Positions 41,099 through 51,313 of a stretch of 64,000 bases of DNA are shown here, piece after piece. Made by a program: the position numbers and the translations under genes. The stretch comes from Candidatus Electrothrix rattekaaiensis (GTDB taxonomy: Bacteria > Desulfobacterota > Desulfobulbia > Desulfobulbales > Desulfobulbaceae). The DNA lies in NCBI GenBank assembly GCA_032595675.1, contig JAVQMD010000001.1, positions 620,001 through 684,000 of the forward strand, read 5' to 3'. Each line of letters begins with the position of its first letter. Position 1 is the first letter of the stretch. The notes beneath the pieces are model-generated. The model ran no database searches, was not told the DNA's origin, and was given only the letters and a program-made list of their open reading frames with translations.

Positions 41099-42340
41099 TT
41101 ACGGACAACAAGGTTCAGGTGGACAGTAGTCCGGTTCTGGTTTCGGTTCCGGCAATGGCGGAGGGCAGTAGCTGCTGTCATACCGGGGTTCAGGGCGGCG
41201 AGCTGTCGGTCGCGGTCTCGTGTTTGACGACGACGTGTAGCTTCCTGTTGCCGGTCGTGGTCTTATGGTTGACGACGTGTAGTTTCCTGTTGCCGGTCGC
41301 GGTCTTATGGTTGACGACGTATAGCTTCCTGTTGCCGGTCGCGGTCTTATGGTTGACGACGTGTAGCTTCCTGTTGCCGGTCGTGGTCTTATGATTGGCG
41401 GCGTGTAGGTCGGTGTGTAGTTTCCTATTGCCGGTCGCGATCTTATGGTTGACAACGAGTACGGCATGTTTGACGACGACGTGTAGTTTCTTGTTGTCGT
41501 TCGTGATTTGATGATTGGCAGTGTAAAAGTCGGTGTAGAAATCGGCATGTAACTTGCTGCCAGTCGCGAACGCATGCTTGTTGTCGACGTGTAGGCTGAA
41601 CTTCTGTTCGTCGGCATAGGGTTGATTCTTGTTGTCGTTCGTGATTTAATGATTGGCAGTGTAAAAGTCGGTGTAGAAATCGGCATGGAGCTTCGTGAAC
41701 TCGTCGGGCTTAAACGGATGTTTGAAGATGATCCATACGATGATCTATAGGTTCTTGTTGCCGGTGTGGTTATTGTTGAGGGCACTGTAAACCGTGATGT
41801 CGGCGTGGTTACCATAGATGGAACCGTAATTTTTGTCGCCGGAGTGGTGGTGACGGTTGCTGGATAACGATTCCGTGTGCTGACCTGCTTACTGACGTAG
41901 CGTGACGGCGAAGTATATCGTGTTGTTGATGAGCGCACTATCGGTCTGGAACGCACTATCGGTCTGGAACGCACTATCGGTCTGGAACGCACTATCGGTC
42001 TGTATGTACGAGTAACCGGTGCAGAGGTCCGCGATGATGAATAGGTACGGCGCGGAGAATATGTACGAACAATTGGTGTAGAGGAGCGTACCACCGGTGT
42101 AGAGGAACGTACCACTGGTGAGTATCTACGTACAACCGGTGTAGAGGAACGAACAGTCGGCACATAGGTGCGTCGTACCGATCTGCTCGTTCCGCTACCG
42201 GTGTGGGTCGAAGTGGAAACACTTTGGGTTGTTGAGGTGTAGGTATGGACTGACCGTGAGGTTGGCCCGCTGGAGTATCCGCATGCGCTCAATAAACCAG
42301 CAGTAAGCACAGGTGTTAATAAGACGGTTGTCATCTTCAT
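41099..42340 (-). CDS. Long low-complexity Ser/Thr/Arg-repeat lipoprotein
   Basis: A 413-residue lipoprotein. MKMTTVLLTPVLTAGLLSAC is the signal peptide with lipobox LLSAC, preceded by AGGAGATGAAGAACTC. The mature protein is almost wholly repeats: VVRSSTPV/IVRSRP units, then TFTLPIIKSRTTTR, and six IRPRPATGSYTSST-type units near the C-terminus, ending with a Pro/Cys-rich PPEPCCP. Such basic, disordered chains suit binding to polyanions or peptidoglycan, but that is inference. DNA-level tandem repeats are obvious around 41230-41400 and 41930-42000. The longer open frame upstream overlaps another small lipoprotein gene. Confidence 0.6.
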   Translation of the reverse strand: MKMTTVLLTPVLTAGLLSACGYSSGPTSRSVHTYTSTTQSVSTSTHTGSGTSRSVRRTYVPTVRSSTPVVRRYSPVVRSSTPVVRSSTPIVRTYSPRRTYSSSRTSAPVTRTYRPIVRSRPIVRSRPIVRSRPIVRSSTTRYTSPSRYVSKQVSTRNRYPATVTTTPATKITVPSMVTTPTSRFTVPSTITTPATRTYRSSYGSSSNIRLSPTSSRSSMPISTPTFTLPIIKSRTTTRINPMPTNRSSAYTSTTSMRSRLAASYMPISTPTFTLPIIKSRTTTRNYTSSSNMPYSLSTIRSRPAIGNYTPTYTPPIIRPRPATGSYTSSTIRPRPATGSYTSSTIRPRPATGNYTSSTIRPRPATGSYTSSSNTRPRPTARRPEPRYDSSYCPPPLPEPKPEPDYCPPEPCCP

Positions 42341-42384
42341 GAGTTCTTCATCTCCTGAAATTATATAACGTTTTTTATACAGTG

Positions 42385-42552
42385 TTAATAGTGGGGATAT
42401 GCCCCCCCGCCGTAATAGGTGGAGGTTCGGACGGTGTGTGTCGAGGTCGAATAGGTATCGACAGTCCGTGATGTCGGTGCTGAGTAGTAGCACCCGCTCA
42501 GTACAAGAGCGGCAAGAAGTAATACTATAAATAAGCGTCCTCGTTTCTTCAT
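42385..42552 (-). CDS. Small lipoprotein (55 residues)
   Basis: A short gene with a strong AGGAGGTGGGG ribosome site. MKKRGRLFIVLLLAALVLSG is followed by the lipobox Cys (LSGC at about residue 21). The mature part is Ser/Thr/Tyr-rich (YYSAPTSRTVDTYST) and ends GGGAYPHY. The SRTVDTYSTSTHT part resembles the start of the mature 413-residue neighbour (SRSVHTYTSTT), so the two are probably related. First of the four-gene lipoprotein run. Confidence 0.65.
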   Translation of the reverse strand: MKKRGRLFIVLLLAALVLSGCYYSAPTSRTVDTYSTSTHTVRTSTYYGGGAYPHY

Positions 42553-44310: not shown

Positions 44311-45225
44311 TCAGGGCGCGAGCGCAGTTTGTATGGCCTTGGCCATTTGCCTGAGGTTCTGTTCGATATTTTCTGCCAAAGGATCCAGTTCCACAAGCCT
44401 GCCCTTAATAGCCTGGGCCACGGTTTGGGCATTTTTTCGGTCAAACTGGGGTTGGACAAAGAGAACCTTGACCTTGTCCGCCTTGGCCTGTCTGACCAGG
44501 GCATAGAGCTGCTTGGGAGAAGGGGCCTTTCCTTCGATTTCCACCGCCTCTTGGTGCAGATCATAGGCATGGGCGAAATAACCGAATGCAGGATGAAAAA
44601 CGAAAAAGGTTGCGCCTCGGAGCGGGGCCAGCTGTTGCCTCAGTTCCTGATGGAGCAGGGTCAGTCGTTTTTTGAGGGCTTGAAGATTTTGTTGATAGGC
44701 AGCTACGTGTTTTGGATCTGCCGTTGCCAGAGCCTTTGTCATGGCAGAGGCTATTTTTTCTACATTGCGTGGATCAAGCCAGAGATGCGGGTCCGCATGT
44801 TTCTGGTCCTGCTTTACTTTTTCATGCCCCTCTTTTTTATGGTGATGGGCAACCAGAGGAATTCTTTTGATGCCCGTTGTTACGTCAATGAATTGAGGCC
44901 CGCTGTTGGAGCTCTCTTTATTGCTTATTTTTTGTGCGATCTCCTGTTCAAACTGCATCCCAACTGTAAAATAGAGGCTGGAACGAAAGAGTGAGGTTAT
45001 TTTTTCCGGGGTTGGCTGGTAACTATGCGGTTCCTGTCCCTTGTCGAGCAGAACCCGGGTTTCAACCAGATTTCCCCCTAATTGCTCGACGATCCATTTT
45101 TGTGGGCCAATGGAGACAAACACGGGCAGGGGGGCTTCTGTGTTTGCCGGAAGGTTTGCCGGAAGCATTGCGGTTGAGAGCAGGAAGAAACAGCTCAGAA
45201 AAAATGTACGTGCTTTTGCTTGCAT
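44311..45225 (-). CDS. znuA: Zinc-binding periplasmic protein of the ABC transporter
   Basis: A 304-residue cluster A-I solute-binding protein. The signal peptide ends near LPANLPANT. A first metal His lies in GQEPHSYQPTPEKI, a His/charged-rich loop HHHKKEGHEKVKQDQKHADP precedes PHLWLDPRNVEKIA with the second His, and a third lies in FFVFHPAFGYFAHAY. The His-rich loop is typical of zinc rather than manganese members. It captures metal for the ZnuBC pump. A possible Zur-type operator lies about 45 bases upstream. Confidence 0.9.
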   Translation of the reverse strand: MQAKARTFFLSCFFLLSTAMLPANLPANTEAPLPVFVSIGPQKWIVEQLGGNLVETRVLLDKGQEPHSYQPTPEKITSLFRSSLYFTVGMQFEQEIAQKISNKESSNSGPQFIDVTTGIKRIPLVAHHHKKEGHEKVKQDQKHADPHLWLDPRNVEKIASAMTKALATADPKHVAAYQQNLQALKKRLTLLHQELRQQLAPLRGATFFVFHPAFGYFAHAYDLHQEAVEIEGKAPSPKQLYALVRQAKADKVKVLFVQPQFDRKNAQTVAQAIKGRLVELDPLAENIEQNLRQMAKAIQTALAP

Positions 45226-45364: not shown

Positions 45365-45643
45365 TTACTGATTGTGCTCGGCTTGCAACGCCTGCTCAAT
45401 AAACGCCCTGATAGCAGCCCGGCCAAGCAGAAGTCCGCTCAACCTTTGATTTCCGGCCTGCAAGGTCGGGATCATTCTGATCCGCTGCCGGAGGGTTCTG
45501 CCCGGATGGGTCAGGATATCCACCGATTCAACCTTGAGGTTAGGGAACTCCTGCTGGAGATCGGTCAGCACCCGGCGGACCAACATGCAGCGGGGTCAGA
45601 GGGCGGAGGTGTACAAGATAATGTGGGTATCAGGTTTTTTCAT
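45365..45643 (-). CDS. Thioredoxin-fold protein with probable selenocysteine (UPRC motif, in-frame UGA)
   Basis: Reading from ATG 45643, the frame gives MKKPDTHIILYTSAL, then UGA at 45598-45596, then PRCMLVRRVLTDLQQEFPN and on to a TAA at 45365: 92 residues with U16. The UGA sits exactly where thioredoxin/glutaredoxin-like proteins have the first Cys of CxxC. The fold is otherwise complete: strand IILYT, active site UPRC, helix, strand KVESVDI, and the cis-Pro loop IRMIPTL, then GLLLGRAAIRAFIEQAL. Read as a normal gene it would start at 45586 and lose both the first strand and the redox site. It overlaps the mscS end by 14 bases. A SECIS hairpin after the UGA is possible (GCAU/GUGC pairing) but weak by eye. 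Confidence 0.72.
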
Positions 45644-46796
45644 CAGGCAAAGGCTCGGGTTCAGGAGAAGGAGTGAGGGCGGCAACCGGGTTCGGGGCTG
45701 GATCTGTCCCGCCCGTGTCAAAATTCGTGTCAAGATGCAGGGTGCGTTGGGGAAAGGGTATCTCAATCCCGTGTTCTTTAAAAGCGATATGGATCATCTT
45801 GAGCAGATTATGGGTTTGCAGCCCCCGTTGCGCCGGTTCTTCCACCCATACCAGCAGTTGAAGTAGGATGCCTGACTCGCCCAGGCTGCGCACCCTGACC
45901 CTGGGTTCCGGTTTCTTTTCCAGGGCGGTATTTGACTCGGCAACTTGCAGGAGAGTTTTTTCCACCGTACGAAGGTTGCTGTCATAACTCACGTTCACAT
46001 CAATACGGATTCGAAAGCTTACCTCAGGGGCGGATTGATTGATGATTTTGGTGGTGGACATGATGGAGTTGGGTATGGTGATCATCACGTCATCCCTGGT
46101 TTTGATCTTGGTGGAACGAATACCCAACTCCACCACTTCGCCTCGTTCACCGCTGTCAAGGATGATATAATCGCCTACTCTGTAGGCGGCATCGGTGAAC
46201 AGGGCGATGCCGCCGAAGAAGTTGGCCAAGGTGTCCTTGGCTGCCAAGGCAATGGCGATACCGACAATACCGGCTGAAGCGAAAAGGGGCGTCAGATTAA
46301 CATCCCAGATGACCAGTCCCCAGATGATCCCGACAAAGAGGATGATGATCCGGGAGATGTTCTTCAGCATGTAGAATCTGGTTTTATCGAACTTGCTCAC
46401 GGCCCAGCCGGTGTTGTTCGCATTCATGACCGTGATCTCCCGGATCAGGGAGATCCACCAGACCGCCAGAATCAGGGTTTTGATTACATTGGGCAGAGCT
46501 GTGTCCCAGGGCGGCGGAAATGCCGGTTCCAGCAGGGCGGCGTGGAGAAACCCGAGGAGAAAGACAGAAAGAACAGCCGGACGGCGGATGAAACGAACAA
46601 TATATTCATCTGCATCAAAACTGGTTCGGATGGCGAGAGGGAGCAGGATTCTGCTGATAATAATATCCGCCGCCTTACTCAGGATGATGTAAAAACAGAG
46701 AATAGTGAAGCGCTGCCCGAATTGATACTGCCCGAGATCAGGCAGGGAAGTACTGAACCAGTGGCCGAAGGCTTTGGGCAGGATGCTGAAGTCCAT
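45630..46796 (-). CDS. MscS family mechanosensitive ion channel
   Basis: A 388-residue membrane protein: several N-terminal helices, the pore-helix region FASAGIVGIAIALAAKDTLANFFGGIALFTD near residues 165-195, then the MscS beta domain (RVGDYIILDSGERGEVVELGIRST-type text) and a C-terminal alpha/beta domain. The tail after residue 360 is Pro/Glu-rich. It opens under membrane tension to release solutes. Trm112 lies upstream and the selenoprotein candidate overlaps its end, all on the minus strand. Confidence 0.9.
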   Translation of the reverse strand: MDFSILPKAFGHWFSTSLPDLGQYQFGQRFTILCFYIILSKAADIIISRILLPLAIRTSFDADEYIVRFIRRPAVLSVFLLGFLHAALLEPAFPPPWDTALPNVIKTLILAVWWISLIREITVMNANNTGWAVSKFDKTRFYMLKNISRIIILFVGIIWGLVIWDVNLTPLFASAGIVGIAIALAAKDTLANFFGGIALFTDAAYRVGDYIILDSGERGEVVELGIRSTKIKTRDDVMITIPNSIMSTTKIINQSAPEVSFRIRIDVNVSYDSNLRTVEKTLLQVAESNTALEKKPEPRVRVRSLGESGILLQLLVWVEEPAQRGLQTHNLLKMIHIAFKEHGIEIPFPQRTLHLDTNFDTGGTDPAPNPVAALTPSPEPEPLPDEKT

Positions 46797-48418: not shown

Positions 48419-51313
48419 ATGCTTTTCCCTATCAAATACCCGATGAAATTTGCTGCCCTTTGTCTGCTGTTGTTGACTCTTTTTACTGCTGAAACCTTTG
48501 CTACCTCCCTTGATCCTGGCTTTGGTGATAACGGCAAGGTTGCTGTGGATCTCGGATCATACGGTGACCAAGCCAATGCAGTGCTTGTGCAGCCTGACGG
48601 CAAAATTTTGGTGGGCGGGTCTACCTCCAATACCGCTAACTTGGACTTCATGCTCTTTCGGCTCCTTGCTGACGGCTCCCTTGATCTAGAATTTAATATT
48701 GACGGCAAAGTCTCCACAGCAGTGGGGTTCAATGATGATGAGGTCTTTGCCTTAGCCCTGCAAGATGACGGTAAGATTGTCGCGGCAGGCTACAGCAGCA
48801 AGGACGGAAGCCGGGATTTTGCCCTAGCCCGCTATAACAGCGACGGCTCGCTTGATCGGGAATTCGGCCTGGAAGGTATGGTTGTGACGGATGTCAGTGG
48901 TTCTGATGATGAAATTACCAGTGTGGCTGTGCAGCCGGACGGCAAGATCCTGCTGACCGGTACCGCCCTAGGAGATGAAGGACGGGTGGTGGCTCTGGCC
49001 CGGTACCAGAGTAACGGAACACCGGATGATACTTTTGCTGATGAGGGGTTTACCCTCAGTGCCGTGGGCACTGATGCCCGAGCTGAAAGCCTGCTGTTGA
49101 CCGAAGAGGGACGTATTCTTGTTGCTGGTACCTATAGTGAGGAGAAGAAAAACGAGAAGAAAAAGGCTGCACTTATGGTGCTTGCTTACGATGAGAACGG
49201 CGACTTAGATACGAGTTTTGGGCATAAAGGTGTGACTGTTCCGTTGGATGGTGCTGTGCCCAGTGCTGGCTACGGTATGGCGATTCGGGATGACGGCAGT
49301 ATTCTGGTTACCGGTTCTGTCGGAGAAAACGGAGAACGGGACGGGGCTTTGTTTCTCTTTGGCGAGGACGGGTTGCCGGACAGGATCTTTGGCGATAAGG
49401 GTGTCCTGGTTACAGGTGATGATGATGATACGGTCTTTTACGATGTTTTAATGACCGAGGAGATGATCGCAGCAACCGGTGTGACTGTTGGCGAAGACGG
49501 GATGCGCAAATCCCTGTTGATCACCTATGCAAAAGGGGAGGGTGCGAACAGTGAGCAGCTTTTTCAGCAGCAGATGGCTGCTCCCTCAACTGATACAGCT
49601 GGTGAAGAGCCGGTTGCTCAGATCGTTACCGCAGTGGATAATGAAGAAAATTCTGCCTTCTCCCTTGCAGCCACAGGACCTGAGAGTATGGTTGCGGTCG
49701 GTGCCAGCGGTGCGCAGGAAATAGCCCGTGCGGCAGTTCGGAAGTATACTGTCTTTCAGTCAAGTGTTTCTGGAACATCCTGGAAAACAGCCACTGGTAA
49801 TGCCTCTGTCCTGACTGGCGAGGCTCAGGACGTAACCCGGACAACCGCTCTTATTCCGGGAGAAATTCTTTCCGAGCTTGGAACGGTAACGGAGCGGGGC
49901 GTGGTGTTCAGTATTGATCCTCTTCCTGTTTTGAAAGGGAGCGATAGCACCACGGACGATACGACCACGGATGATACGACCGATGATACGACCGATGATA
50001 CAACTACGGATGATACCACCACGATTGATGAAACCGGGCCGAGCATAACCAGCAGTACCAAGGATAATTTTTTACCGACAGAGCCGGTTATTTTGGTCGT
50101 GTCCACGGATGAGAATGCAATATGTAATTTTAATAAGGACTTTGATGAGGATTACGCGGAAATGGGAGGGGTGCTCTCCTCTTCCTACGGTACCGGGCAT
50201 CATATTATCTTGGGCACGCTTACGGAAGGGGATTACATCTTTTACGTACGTTGCAAGGATGAATCAGGGAATATAAGTACAGCAGGGACTGAGGTAACTT
50301 TTGCTGTCTCTGTAGAGAGCACAACAACTGATACAACCGATACTACAGAGGAGGACACAGCTTTAACTATTACTGAGGGGAAGAGTGAAACCACTGCTAG
50401 TGGTGACGTTGTTTTGACGGTTACAACAAATCAAAAAGCTTATTGCGGATACTCTGAGAAATATTCAATTGATCCATATGACTATACAATAAGTTTGATG
50501 CAGACTTTTGATGGCATAAAGCATGAAATAAATATCGGACCGAAACCGCTTCCTTCCGATATATACTATGTCGGTTGCAGGGATATATCTGATGAAAATA
50601 ACATAACAACGTTCCCGACAAAAATTGAGGTCACATCGTTATACAAAAACTCCATCTTCTTTTCTGAAAATCAAGTCGCTTTCTCCTCTCCTATGAAAGC
50701 AGGTTTGAGCACCGCCTTGGAAAGCGTTGGAAATCTGTTCGTGAGCACTGCTATCGCCCAAGATGATGAAGACAGCACCGATGATACCACAGACACCACT
50801 GACGCAGACACCGAGGACAGTGATTTCCTGGAAGAGGGGGGTATTGAGGAAGGCTCAGGTACTGGCAAGTTTACCGCTAAGCTGGAAGACCTCAAACCCG
50901 GTACTTTCTTCTACGCCCGAGCCTATGCCGTTGTCGACGGCACTACTTATTACGGTAATCAGATCAGTTTTCAGACCGCAGATTCCTGTTTTGTCGCCAC
51001 CGCAGCCTATGGTTCCCTTTTTCACCCCGCAGTGAAACTCCTCCGGGATTTTCGGGATCGCTTCATGCTGGATAACCCGGTGAGCCGTTCTATGGTGCGC
51101 CTGTACTATCGCTATTCTCCGCCTATCGCCGACGTTATTAGCAGCAACACAATCCTGCGTCCGGTGACCAGAACCCTGCTGATGCCCATTGTCGGTTCAG
51201 CCTGGCTGACCATGCATTTTGGTTGGTTGTGGTTGCTTCTCCCCGTAGCGGCTATGGTTCTGTTGAGCTGGTTTGGGATGCAGCAGACAATGAACAGGGA
51301 AAGGCTGCGGTAG
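48419..51313 (+). CDS. Delta-60 repeat surface protein with CFI-box C-terminus
   Basis: A 964-residue exported protein. The signal peptide ends near FTAETFA. Residues 30-330 hold about six delta-60 repeats (LQDDGKIVAAGYSS, FALARYNSDGSLDREFG), probably a beta propeller. A Thr/Asp-rich linker (DDTTDDTTDDTTTDD) lies near residue 520, then Ig-like segments with paired Cys. A second Asp/Thr linker precedes CFVATAAYGSLFHPAV, the CFI-box C-terminal module, and two hydrophobic helices near the end (LLMPIVGSAWLTMHFGWLWL) with a basic tail. Probably a cell-surface or periplasmic adhesin-like protein anchored by its C-terminus. ATG at 48443 is an alternative start. Confidence 0.78.
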   Translation: MLFPIKYPMKFAALCLLLLTLFTAETFATSLDPGFGDNGKVAVDLGSYGDQANAVLVQPDGKILVGGSTSNTANLDFMLFRLLADGSLDLEFNIDGKVSTAVGFNDDEVFALALQDDGKIVAAGYSSKDGSRDFALARYNSDGSLDREFGLEGMVVTDVSGSDDEITSVAVQPDGKILLTGTALGDEGRVVALARYQSNGTPDDTFADEGFTLSAVGTDARAESLLLTEEGRILVAGTYSEEKKNEKKKAALMVLAYDENGDLDTSFGHKGVTVPLDGAVPSAGYGMAIRDDGSILVTGSVGENGERDGALFLFGEDGLPDRIFGDKGVLVTGDDDDTVFYDVLMTEEMIAATGVTVGEDGMRKSLLITYAKGEGANSEQLFQQQMAAPSTDTAGEEPVAQIVTAVDNEENSAFSLAATGPESMVAVGASGAQEIARAAVRKYTVFQSSVSGTSWKTATGNASVLTGEAQDVTRTTALIPGEILSELGTVTERGVVFSIDPLPVLKGSDSTTDDTTTDDTTDDTTDDTTTDDTTTIDETGPSITSSTKDNFLPTEPVILVVSTDENAICNFNKDFDEDYAEMGGVLSSSYGTGHHIILGTLTEGDYIFYVRCKDESGNISTAGTEVTFAVSVESTTTDTTDTTEEDTALTITEGKSETTASGDVVLTVTTNQKAYCGYSEKYSIDPYDYTISLMQTFDGIKHEINIGPKPLPSDIYYVGCRDISDENNITTFPTKIEVTSLYKNSIFFSENQVAFSSPMKAGLSTALESVGNLFVSTAIAQDDEDSTDDTTDTTDADTEDSDFLEEGGIEEGSGTGKFTAKLEDLKPGTFFYARAYAVVDGTTYYGNQISFQTADSCFVATAAYGSLFHPAVKLLRDFRDRFMLDNPVSRSMVRLYYRYSPPIADVISSNTILRPVTRTLLMPIVGSAWLTMHFGWLWLLLPVAAMVLLSWFGMQQTMNRERLR

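Follow-up and report, generated by a model that had tools for sequence, protein, structure and literature searches.

The usual thioredoxin motif is CGPC. Thioredoxins carrying selenocysteine (Sec) in a UxxC motif are already known and are entered in Table 1 of a selenoprotein inventory from 2026 that counts 119 selenoprotein families or subfamilies (PMC13188914), and GOS_C has been described as a thioredoxin-like UxxC family (PMC2398784). Desulfotalea psychrophila has been credited with 12 selenoproteins, none of which is called a thioredoxin in the accessible part of that report (PMC1794560). Our own literature search for UPRC or CPRC selenoproteins, for a CPRC thioredoxin-like motif and for selenoproteins of cable bacteria returned nothing relevant.

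The locus described here lies on the minus strand of the window, that is, the whole stretch of 64,000 nucleotides that was analysed, and comprises the following features.

45365-45643, minus strand: predicted selenoprotein gene for a 92-residue UPRC thioredoxin-like protein, from ATG 45643 to TAA 45367-45365
45596-45598, minus strand: in-frame UGA, putative selenocysteine U16, position one of UPRC; homologues have Cys (TGC/TGT) or TGA here
45587-45589, minus strand: codon UGC of the presumed resolving Cys19, last residue of UPRC, invariant in 29 aligned rows
45467-45469, minus strand: codon of the presumed cis-Pro, P59 (in IPT), invariant in 29 aligned rows
45563-45581, minus strand: putative SECIS apical hairpin, register A, in which 45581-45575 pairs with 45569-45563
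45574-45570, minus strand: loop of that hairpin, CGGGU, with G at the second loop position
45630-46796, minus strand: upstream MscS-family channel gene, whose 3' end overlaps the predicted selenoprotein gene by 14 nt
44311-45225, minus strand: downstream gene for a ZnuA-like periplasmic component of zinc uptake, with genes for an ABC ATPase and a permease after it

The frame claimed in an earlier note on this DNA proved to be exact: from ATG 45643 it runs through exactly one in-frame TGA, at residue 16, to the TAA, and the translation (MKKPDTHIILYTSALUPRC...EHNQ and stop) is a 92-residue read-through product with UPRC at residues 16-19. The same note had warned that standard gene calling would lose the active site, and mechanical ORF calling does return 73 residues from ATG 45586, downstream of it. 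No strong ribosome-binding site for the gene was seen by eye, and its overlap with the MscS-family gene makes translational coupling possible.

Judged from its sequence and its relatives, this gene very probably encodes a minimal thioredoxin-fold selenoprotein of 92 residues with a UPRC motif, whose UGA would be decoded as Sec by way of a SECIS element. We infer Sec insertion, as the earlier note had done, from the sel genes of the genome, the Cys or Sec found at the UGA position of homologues and a covarying SECIS hairpin, all of which support that reading. In the proposed mechanism, SelB with Sec-tRNA would decode the UGA of residue 16 as selenocysteine under the direction of a hairpin with a 5-nt loop starting 22 nt downstream of that codon. 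The UPRC redox centre would consist of Sec16 and Cys19 and lie opposite cis-Pro59. In the redox cycle, Sec16 would act first, on disulfides or oxidised substrates; Cys19 would then resolve the mixed intermediate so formed, leaving a Sec16-Cys19 selenylsulfide for a cellular reductase to re-reduce. The protein is most likely a thiol-disulfide oxidoreductase with such a predicted selenylsulfide, and its location is probably cytosolic, no signal peptide being visible by eye.

A search of 57 related genomes, including the window's own, gave 31 matches in 30 genomes, and 17 of these match rows were flagged as having one TGA, which on reading lies at the UPRC position in 16; the other (L014) is the ordinary stop codon that ends a CPRC gene, as is the TAA of the lone TAA-flagged row (L029). 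The best relative, from the same genus (L003), keeps the TGA and shows 75% identity across the frame, with a dN/dS of 0.27 after the UGA, which is more than chance would give. An order-wide profile search found homologues in 158 of 257 genomes (E <= 1e-8), and an even draw of 395 genomes across the phylum gave 7 matches (E <= 1e-12), all inside the window's order. The scan of named genomes yielded 24 loci, 11 of them under Desulfobulbia genus names or Desulfobulbaceae, and these names lead us to take Desulfobulbales as the window's order. Seven loci clearly outside Desulfobulbia, in Desulfoluna (1), Campylobacterota (4), Spirochaetes (1) and Anaerolineae (1), are all CPRC, and the remainder are unspecific 'delta' or Proteobacteria bins. 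Among the viral contigs searched, 120 pattern matches included no relative. Throughout the 29 aligned rows U/C16, P17, R18, C19 and P59 are invariant.

The earlier note had proposed looking for Cys at position 16 of an alignment, and the homologues do show either Cys or Sec at precisely that residue. With duplicates counted, 162 loci matched the profile, and 160 of them carry [U/C]PRC (79 UPRC and 81 CPRC); the other two are one UPRS (L123) and one distant CGPC (L031). The UPRS gene (in G111) keeps Sec and has Ser (AGT) for the resolving Cys; it lies inside a Sec clade and could be a monothiol-type selenoprotein or a sequencing error. Among the copies read, distinct genes number 65 with Sec and 66 with Cys at the same codon, the Cys codons being TGC in 40 and TGT in 26; these tallies are among the matches listed, which hold part of the order-wide Cys matches. 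An in-frame UGA at the position where homologues have Cys is the pattern that marks a bacterial selenoprotein.

The machinery for Sec insertion, another point on which the earlier note had made its reading depend, is complete in the window's genome: selA (626 bits, cut-off 267.9), selB (375.9, cut-off 242.25), selD (343.8, cut-off 125) and tRNA-Sec, the selC product (74.8, cut-off 47), all score above the curated cut-offs, and selD has its own in-frame TGA in the motif CGUAAK. Among 14 control genomes, selA exceeded the cut-off in 1, selB in 2, selD in 2 and tRNA-Sec in 5, so that the tRNA-Sec cut-off alone is not very specific. Because the selB, selD and tRNA-Sec models also match all 14 controls, mostly below cut-off, only matches above cut-off count. 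Two SelD-like genes are present outside the window (G000:C1:1741955-1742899 and 1925405-1926334). The TGA-bearing one (CGUAAK, 343.8 bits) is about 6 kb from selB; the second, a 351-aa frame that has no TGA, gave a match split in two, with 252.3 bits in all.

A bacterial SECIS, which can be specific to its host, is a hairpin that closely follows the UGA and has a G among the first loop positions; a hairpin of this kind, with the loop CGGGU, is found 3' of the UGA in the window. The window's single-sequence fold is unremarkable (z about -1, with 27 of 200 dinucleotide shuffles folding at least as well), so that the SECIS is convincing solely by comparison. Its stem has one C-U mismatch at columns 22-32 (columns being numbered from the U of the UGA). 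The SECIS expected from the earlier note is therefore borne out as a hairpin that is present and covaries across relatives, but not as a remarkable fold of the window by itself.

Comparison of the homologues reveals two hairpins of the same shape, each with a 5 bp stem and a 5-nt loop, 7 nt apart: register A pairs columns 20-24 with 30-34, and register B pairs columns 27-31 with 37-41. Each register was aligned over 29 sequences, and 7 of the 65 distinct Sec genes are absent from both alignments. RNAalifold recovers both hairpins unprompted and in B adds a further short one, at columns 11-20, that hardly varies. In register A, the pair 21-33 is C-G in 15, A-U in 5, G-C in 5 and U-G in 4 of the 29 sequences and joins the third codon positions of a Val/Ala codon and a Leu codon, while the pair 23-31 is G-C in 25 and A-U in 4; two further pairs at the outer end of the window's longer stem do not form in 13 and 17 of these 29. 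In register B, all 145 of 145 cells are paired, with 11 double changes. For both registers, none of 500 shuffles reached the observed paired cells, doubly changed cells or covariation score, and the counts of doubly changed pairs and of further pair types were matched by 96 and 96 of the 500 for B and by 170 and 244 for A; these shuffles, like the synonymous-codon test below, are lenient because the sequences are related.

Randomisation of synonymous codons over 51 nt from the UGA gave a mean z of -1.07 for Sec genes (n=65) as opposed to +0.07 for Cys genes (n=66), and -1.96 for the window itself; a simpler codon pool gave -0.98 and 0.02. The difference is confined to that stretch, the values being -0.06 (Sec) and -0.13 (Cys) 51 nt further on, -0.23 and -0.39 102 nt further on, and 0.93 (n=52) and 0.86 (n=51) in the 54 nt before the UGA. 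A generic rule for minimum-free-energy folds (stem of at least 5, loop of 3-14, loop start at 16-38, and a G at loop position 1 or 2) picked out 48 of 65 Sec and 13 of 66 Cys genes, or 56 and 37 without the rule for G. At least four of five A pairs or all five B pairs, a threshold set on mostly the same Sec sequences that were counted, are present in 65 of 65 Sec genes versus 8 of 66 Cys genes, matches below 60 bits (L031, L059) and duplicate downstream sequences having been removed before the tally. Shifting the registers leaves 0-8 of 65 Sec and 0-15 of 66 Cys genes, apart from shifts of 7, where one class falls into the register of the other (23 and 33 Sec genes). A Sec paralogue (L186) fetched after the hairpins had been defined shows 5 of 5 pairs.

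The catalytic position is thus split nearly evenly between Sec and Cys within one bacterial order (65 and 66 genes read). On a tree from a short alignment (79 columns; 15 of 128 inner branches starred), at least 15 changes between Sec and Cys are needed, a weak estimate in that another tree could need fewer. One Cys gene (L015, in G056) and one Sec gene (L090, in G189) are identical over 57 nt save for TGC/TGA, and the Cys copy still has the SECIS hairpin; because of this near identity, it seems to be a recent change from Sec to Cys that retains the old SECIS. Eight Cys genes have a hairpin: two of them (L015 and L079) fall within a Sec clade, a third (L157) is placed next to the Sec gene L129, and the other five have no such clear position in the tree. 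The even split, the 15 switches, the L015/L090 pair and the two SECIS registers make this family a good natural test of the gain and loss of Sec in bacteria.

The neighbourhood of the gene was considered as a general guide to function and set aside, as contexts vary by lineage. The counts refer to 139 loci, which include several genomes twice, with neighbour families named from one representative each: the nearest downstream gene on the same strand is Na/Ca-exchanger-like in 39 (representative at 28.6 bits to PF01699, cut-off 24.9), and on the upstream side the closest neighbour is histone-deacetylase-like and divergent in 45 and a class-I adenylate cyclase in 23. The start of the exchanger-like gene, taken from mechanical ORF starts, overlaps the end of the [U/C]PRC gene by 4 nt in 21 of the 39, as in L099, L103 and L215. 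Sec forms (20) and Cys forms (19) adjoin the exchanger alike, and this association is therefore independent of selenium. The mscS-znuA neighbours were seen in no genus other than the window's own and so give no ground for arguing either zinc uptake or osmoregulation; the recurrent downstream Na/Ca-exchanger-like gene is the sole functional hint. A reading in which the [U/C]PRC protein serves as a dedicated redox partner for ion-moving membrane proteins strikes us as improbable; these would be the exchanger-like transporter, with which it seems to share an operon in many relatives, and the MscS channel, whose gene is the overlapping one in the window. If it were so, selenium status would control cation flux.

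Other open reading frames of the window may be recorded here. The ZnuA-like protein (44311-45225, minus strand) has a His-rich stretch, which is usual for zinc binding. A long, repetitive ORF rich in Ser, Thr, Arg and Pro at 41099-42493 (minus strand), in which RPRPATGSYTSS repeats are seen by eye, is possibly a surface protein. At 48419-51313 (plus strand), a 964-aa ORF shows by eye LDxxFGxxG-type repeats and a (TTDD)n linker, and its C-terminal part has a hydrophobic stretch.

Two of the 8 genomes of the window's genus yielded the gene; some of the 8 are incomplete (G005 is 69% complete). Downstream of mscS, one genome (G007) has a decayed copy (L197) and another (G003) a 5' stub with the first codons only (L200), and no recognisable trace of the gene is seen there in G001, G002 and G004. 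Since it was not found in six of the eight and is decayed or reduced to a stub in two, the gene is dispensable in this genus, and the remnants suggest that it was once present and then lost, possibly repeatedly. These losses among close relatives, together with the fact that TGA is a single change from either Cys codon, would fit a pseudogene in which TGC or TGT had mutated to a true stop in the window's lineage. Such an origin is nevertheless very unlikely, because the TGA is common to 65 distinct genes from several families of the order, with neither TAA nor TAG at this codon among the homologue copies read; because dN/dS between the window and G006 is 0.27 after the UGA (0.38 before it, over 15 codons only); because the decay in G007 and G003 consists of deletions, with no lone TGA; and because the SECIS covaries. 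Still harder to credit is that the real gene is the 73-aa ORF from ATG 45586, without an active site. It is the output of mechanical ORF calling, but in place of its initial residue, M20, homologues have L, H, R, F, I, A or other residues, while conservation extends to the UPRC motif and to the strand that precedes the UGA, and Cys homologues hold the N-terminal strand in one open frame.

A different question is whether the protein, accepted as a selenoprotein, is the Sec form of a catalogued broad family (PF00085, glutaredoxin or glutaredoxin-like) that published selenoproteomes already count, a proposal that differs from ours only in the degree of newness. Its fold and UxxC motif agree with this. 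The window protein reaches no Pfam cut-off but comes nearest with PF00085, which it misses by 0.6 bit (22.9 against 23.5); among 10 relatives scanned, drawn from the 29 aligned rows, 6 exceed that cut-off and a seventh scores exactly 23.5. One relative (L019, 27.7 against 22.9) passes PF00462, where another equals 22.9, and two pass PF13192. In addition, the row for Desulfolithobacter dissulfuricans GF1 in one survey gives 22 selenoproteins, and GF1 is not named, in the part available, among the sources of new ones (PMC12013277), so that a UPRC gene of GF1 would have been either missed there or counted within a known family. On the other hand, the window protein passes no curated cut-off of NCBIfam, the 10 relatives likewise reach none (best 40.7 against 92.75, TIGR00411), the genome has a canonical TrxA as a separate gene (124 bits), and published family tables name nothing with a UPRC motif, as far as Table 1 of the 2026 inventory goes (PMC13188914). 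We regard prior cataloguing as a serious possibility that falls somewhat short of probable, and prefer to see in this protein, probably, an uncatalogued subfamily of a well-known kind, the UxxC thioredoxin-like selenoproteins.

The claim of a thioredoxin fold with UPRC in the place of CxxC and a cis-Pro downstream agrees with an AlphaFold model (22 rows, mean pLDDT 84.7), which predicts a complete minimal thioredoxin fold in the order strand-helix-strand-helix-strand-strand-helix, and with the invariance of P59 in 29 rows; fold, two-residue-spaced redox motif and cis-Pro are together those of a thioredoxin domain. The best 50 Foldseek matches in the PDB are all thioredoxins or entries with one as fusion or partner (query TM 0.67-0.80), some having been judged thioredoxin by name or from sequence-based structure matches. 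Small thioredoxin-fold families with some Sec members are similar in kind, but the window protein is below their cut-offs: 19.8 against 22.9 bits for glutaredoxin (PF00462), 21.6 against 26 for Glrx-like DUF836 (PF05768), 12.6 against 66 for UXX-star NF041212 and 12.4 against 97 for UXX-star NF047338, PF05768 and NF041212 being reached by none of the 10 relatives. GOS_C (NF045500), SaoT (NF040730) and the HUIPC thioredoxin-like protein (NF047660), which are thioredoxin-like or hypothetical selenoproteins likewise with UxxC, are absent from the NCBIfam matches of the window protein (E <= 1) and of the 10 relatives (E <= 0.001). The MJ0307-family thioredoxin (TIGR00411; PDB 1fo5, 1nho) is similar in length (about 85 aa) and the best solved-structure match by sequence, and its model is matched by 28 of 29 members, but the window protein scores 28.3 bits against a cut-off of 92.75. 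With thioredoxin itself (PF00085/TIGR01068) the protein shares the fold, the cis-Pro and a redox motif that opens helix 1; it differs in having UPRC, in being shorter and in scoring 14.1 against 96.8 bits for TIGR01068, the 10 relatives also being below. Because relatives pass PF00085 and no NCBIfam cut-off is reached, the protein belongs in the broad thioredoxin domain and in no narrower curated family. Overall, the locus adds to the known UxxC proteins a clear Sec-containing subfamily that is truncated by simple gene calling and has no NCBIfam name.
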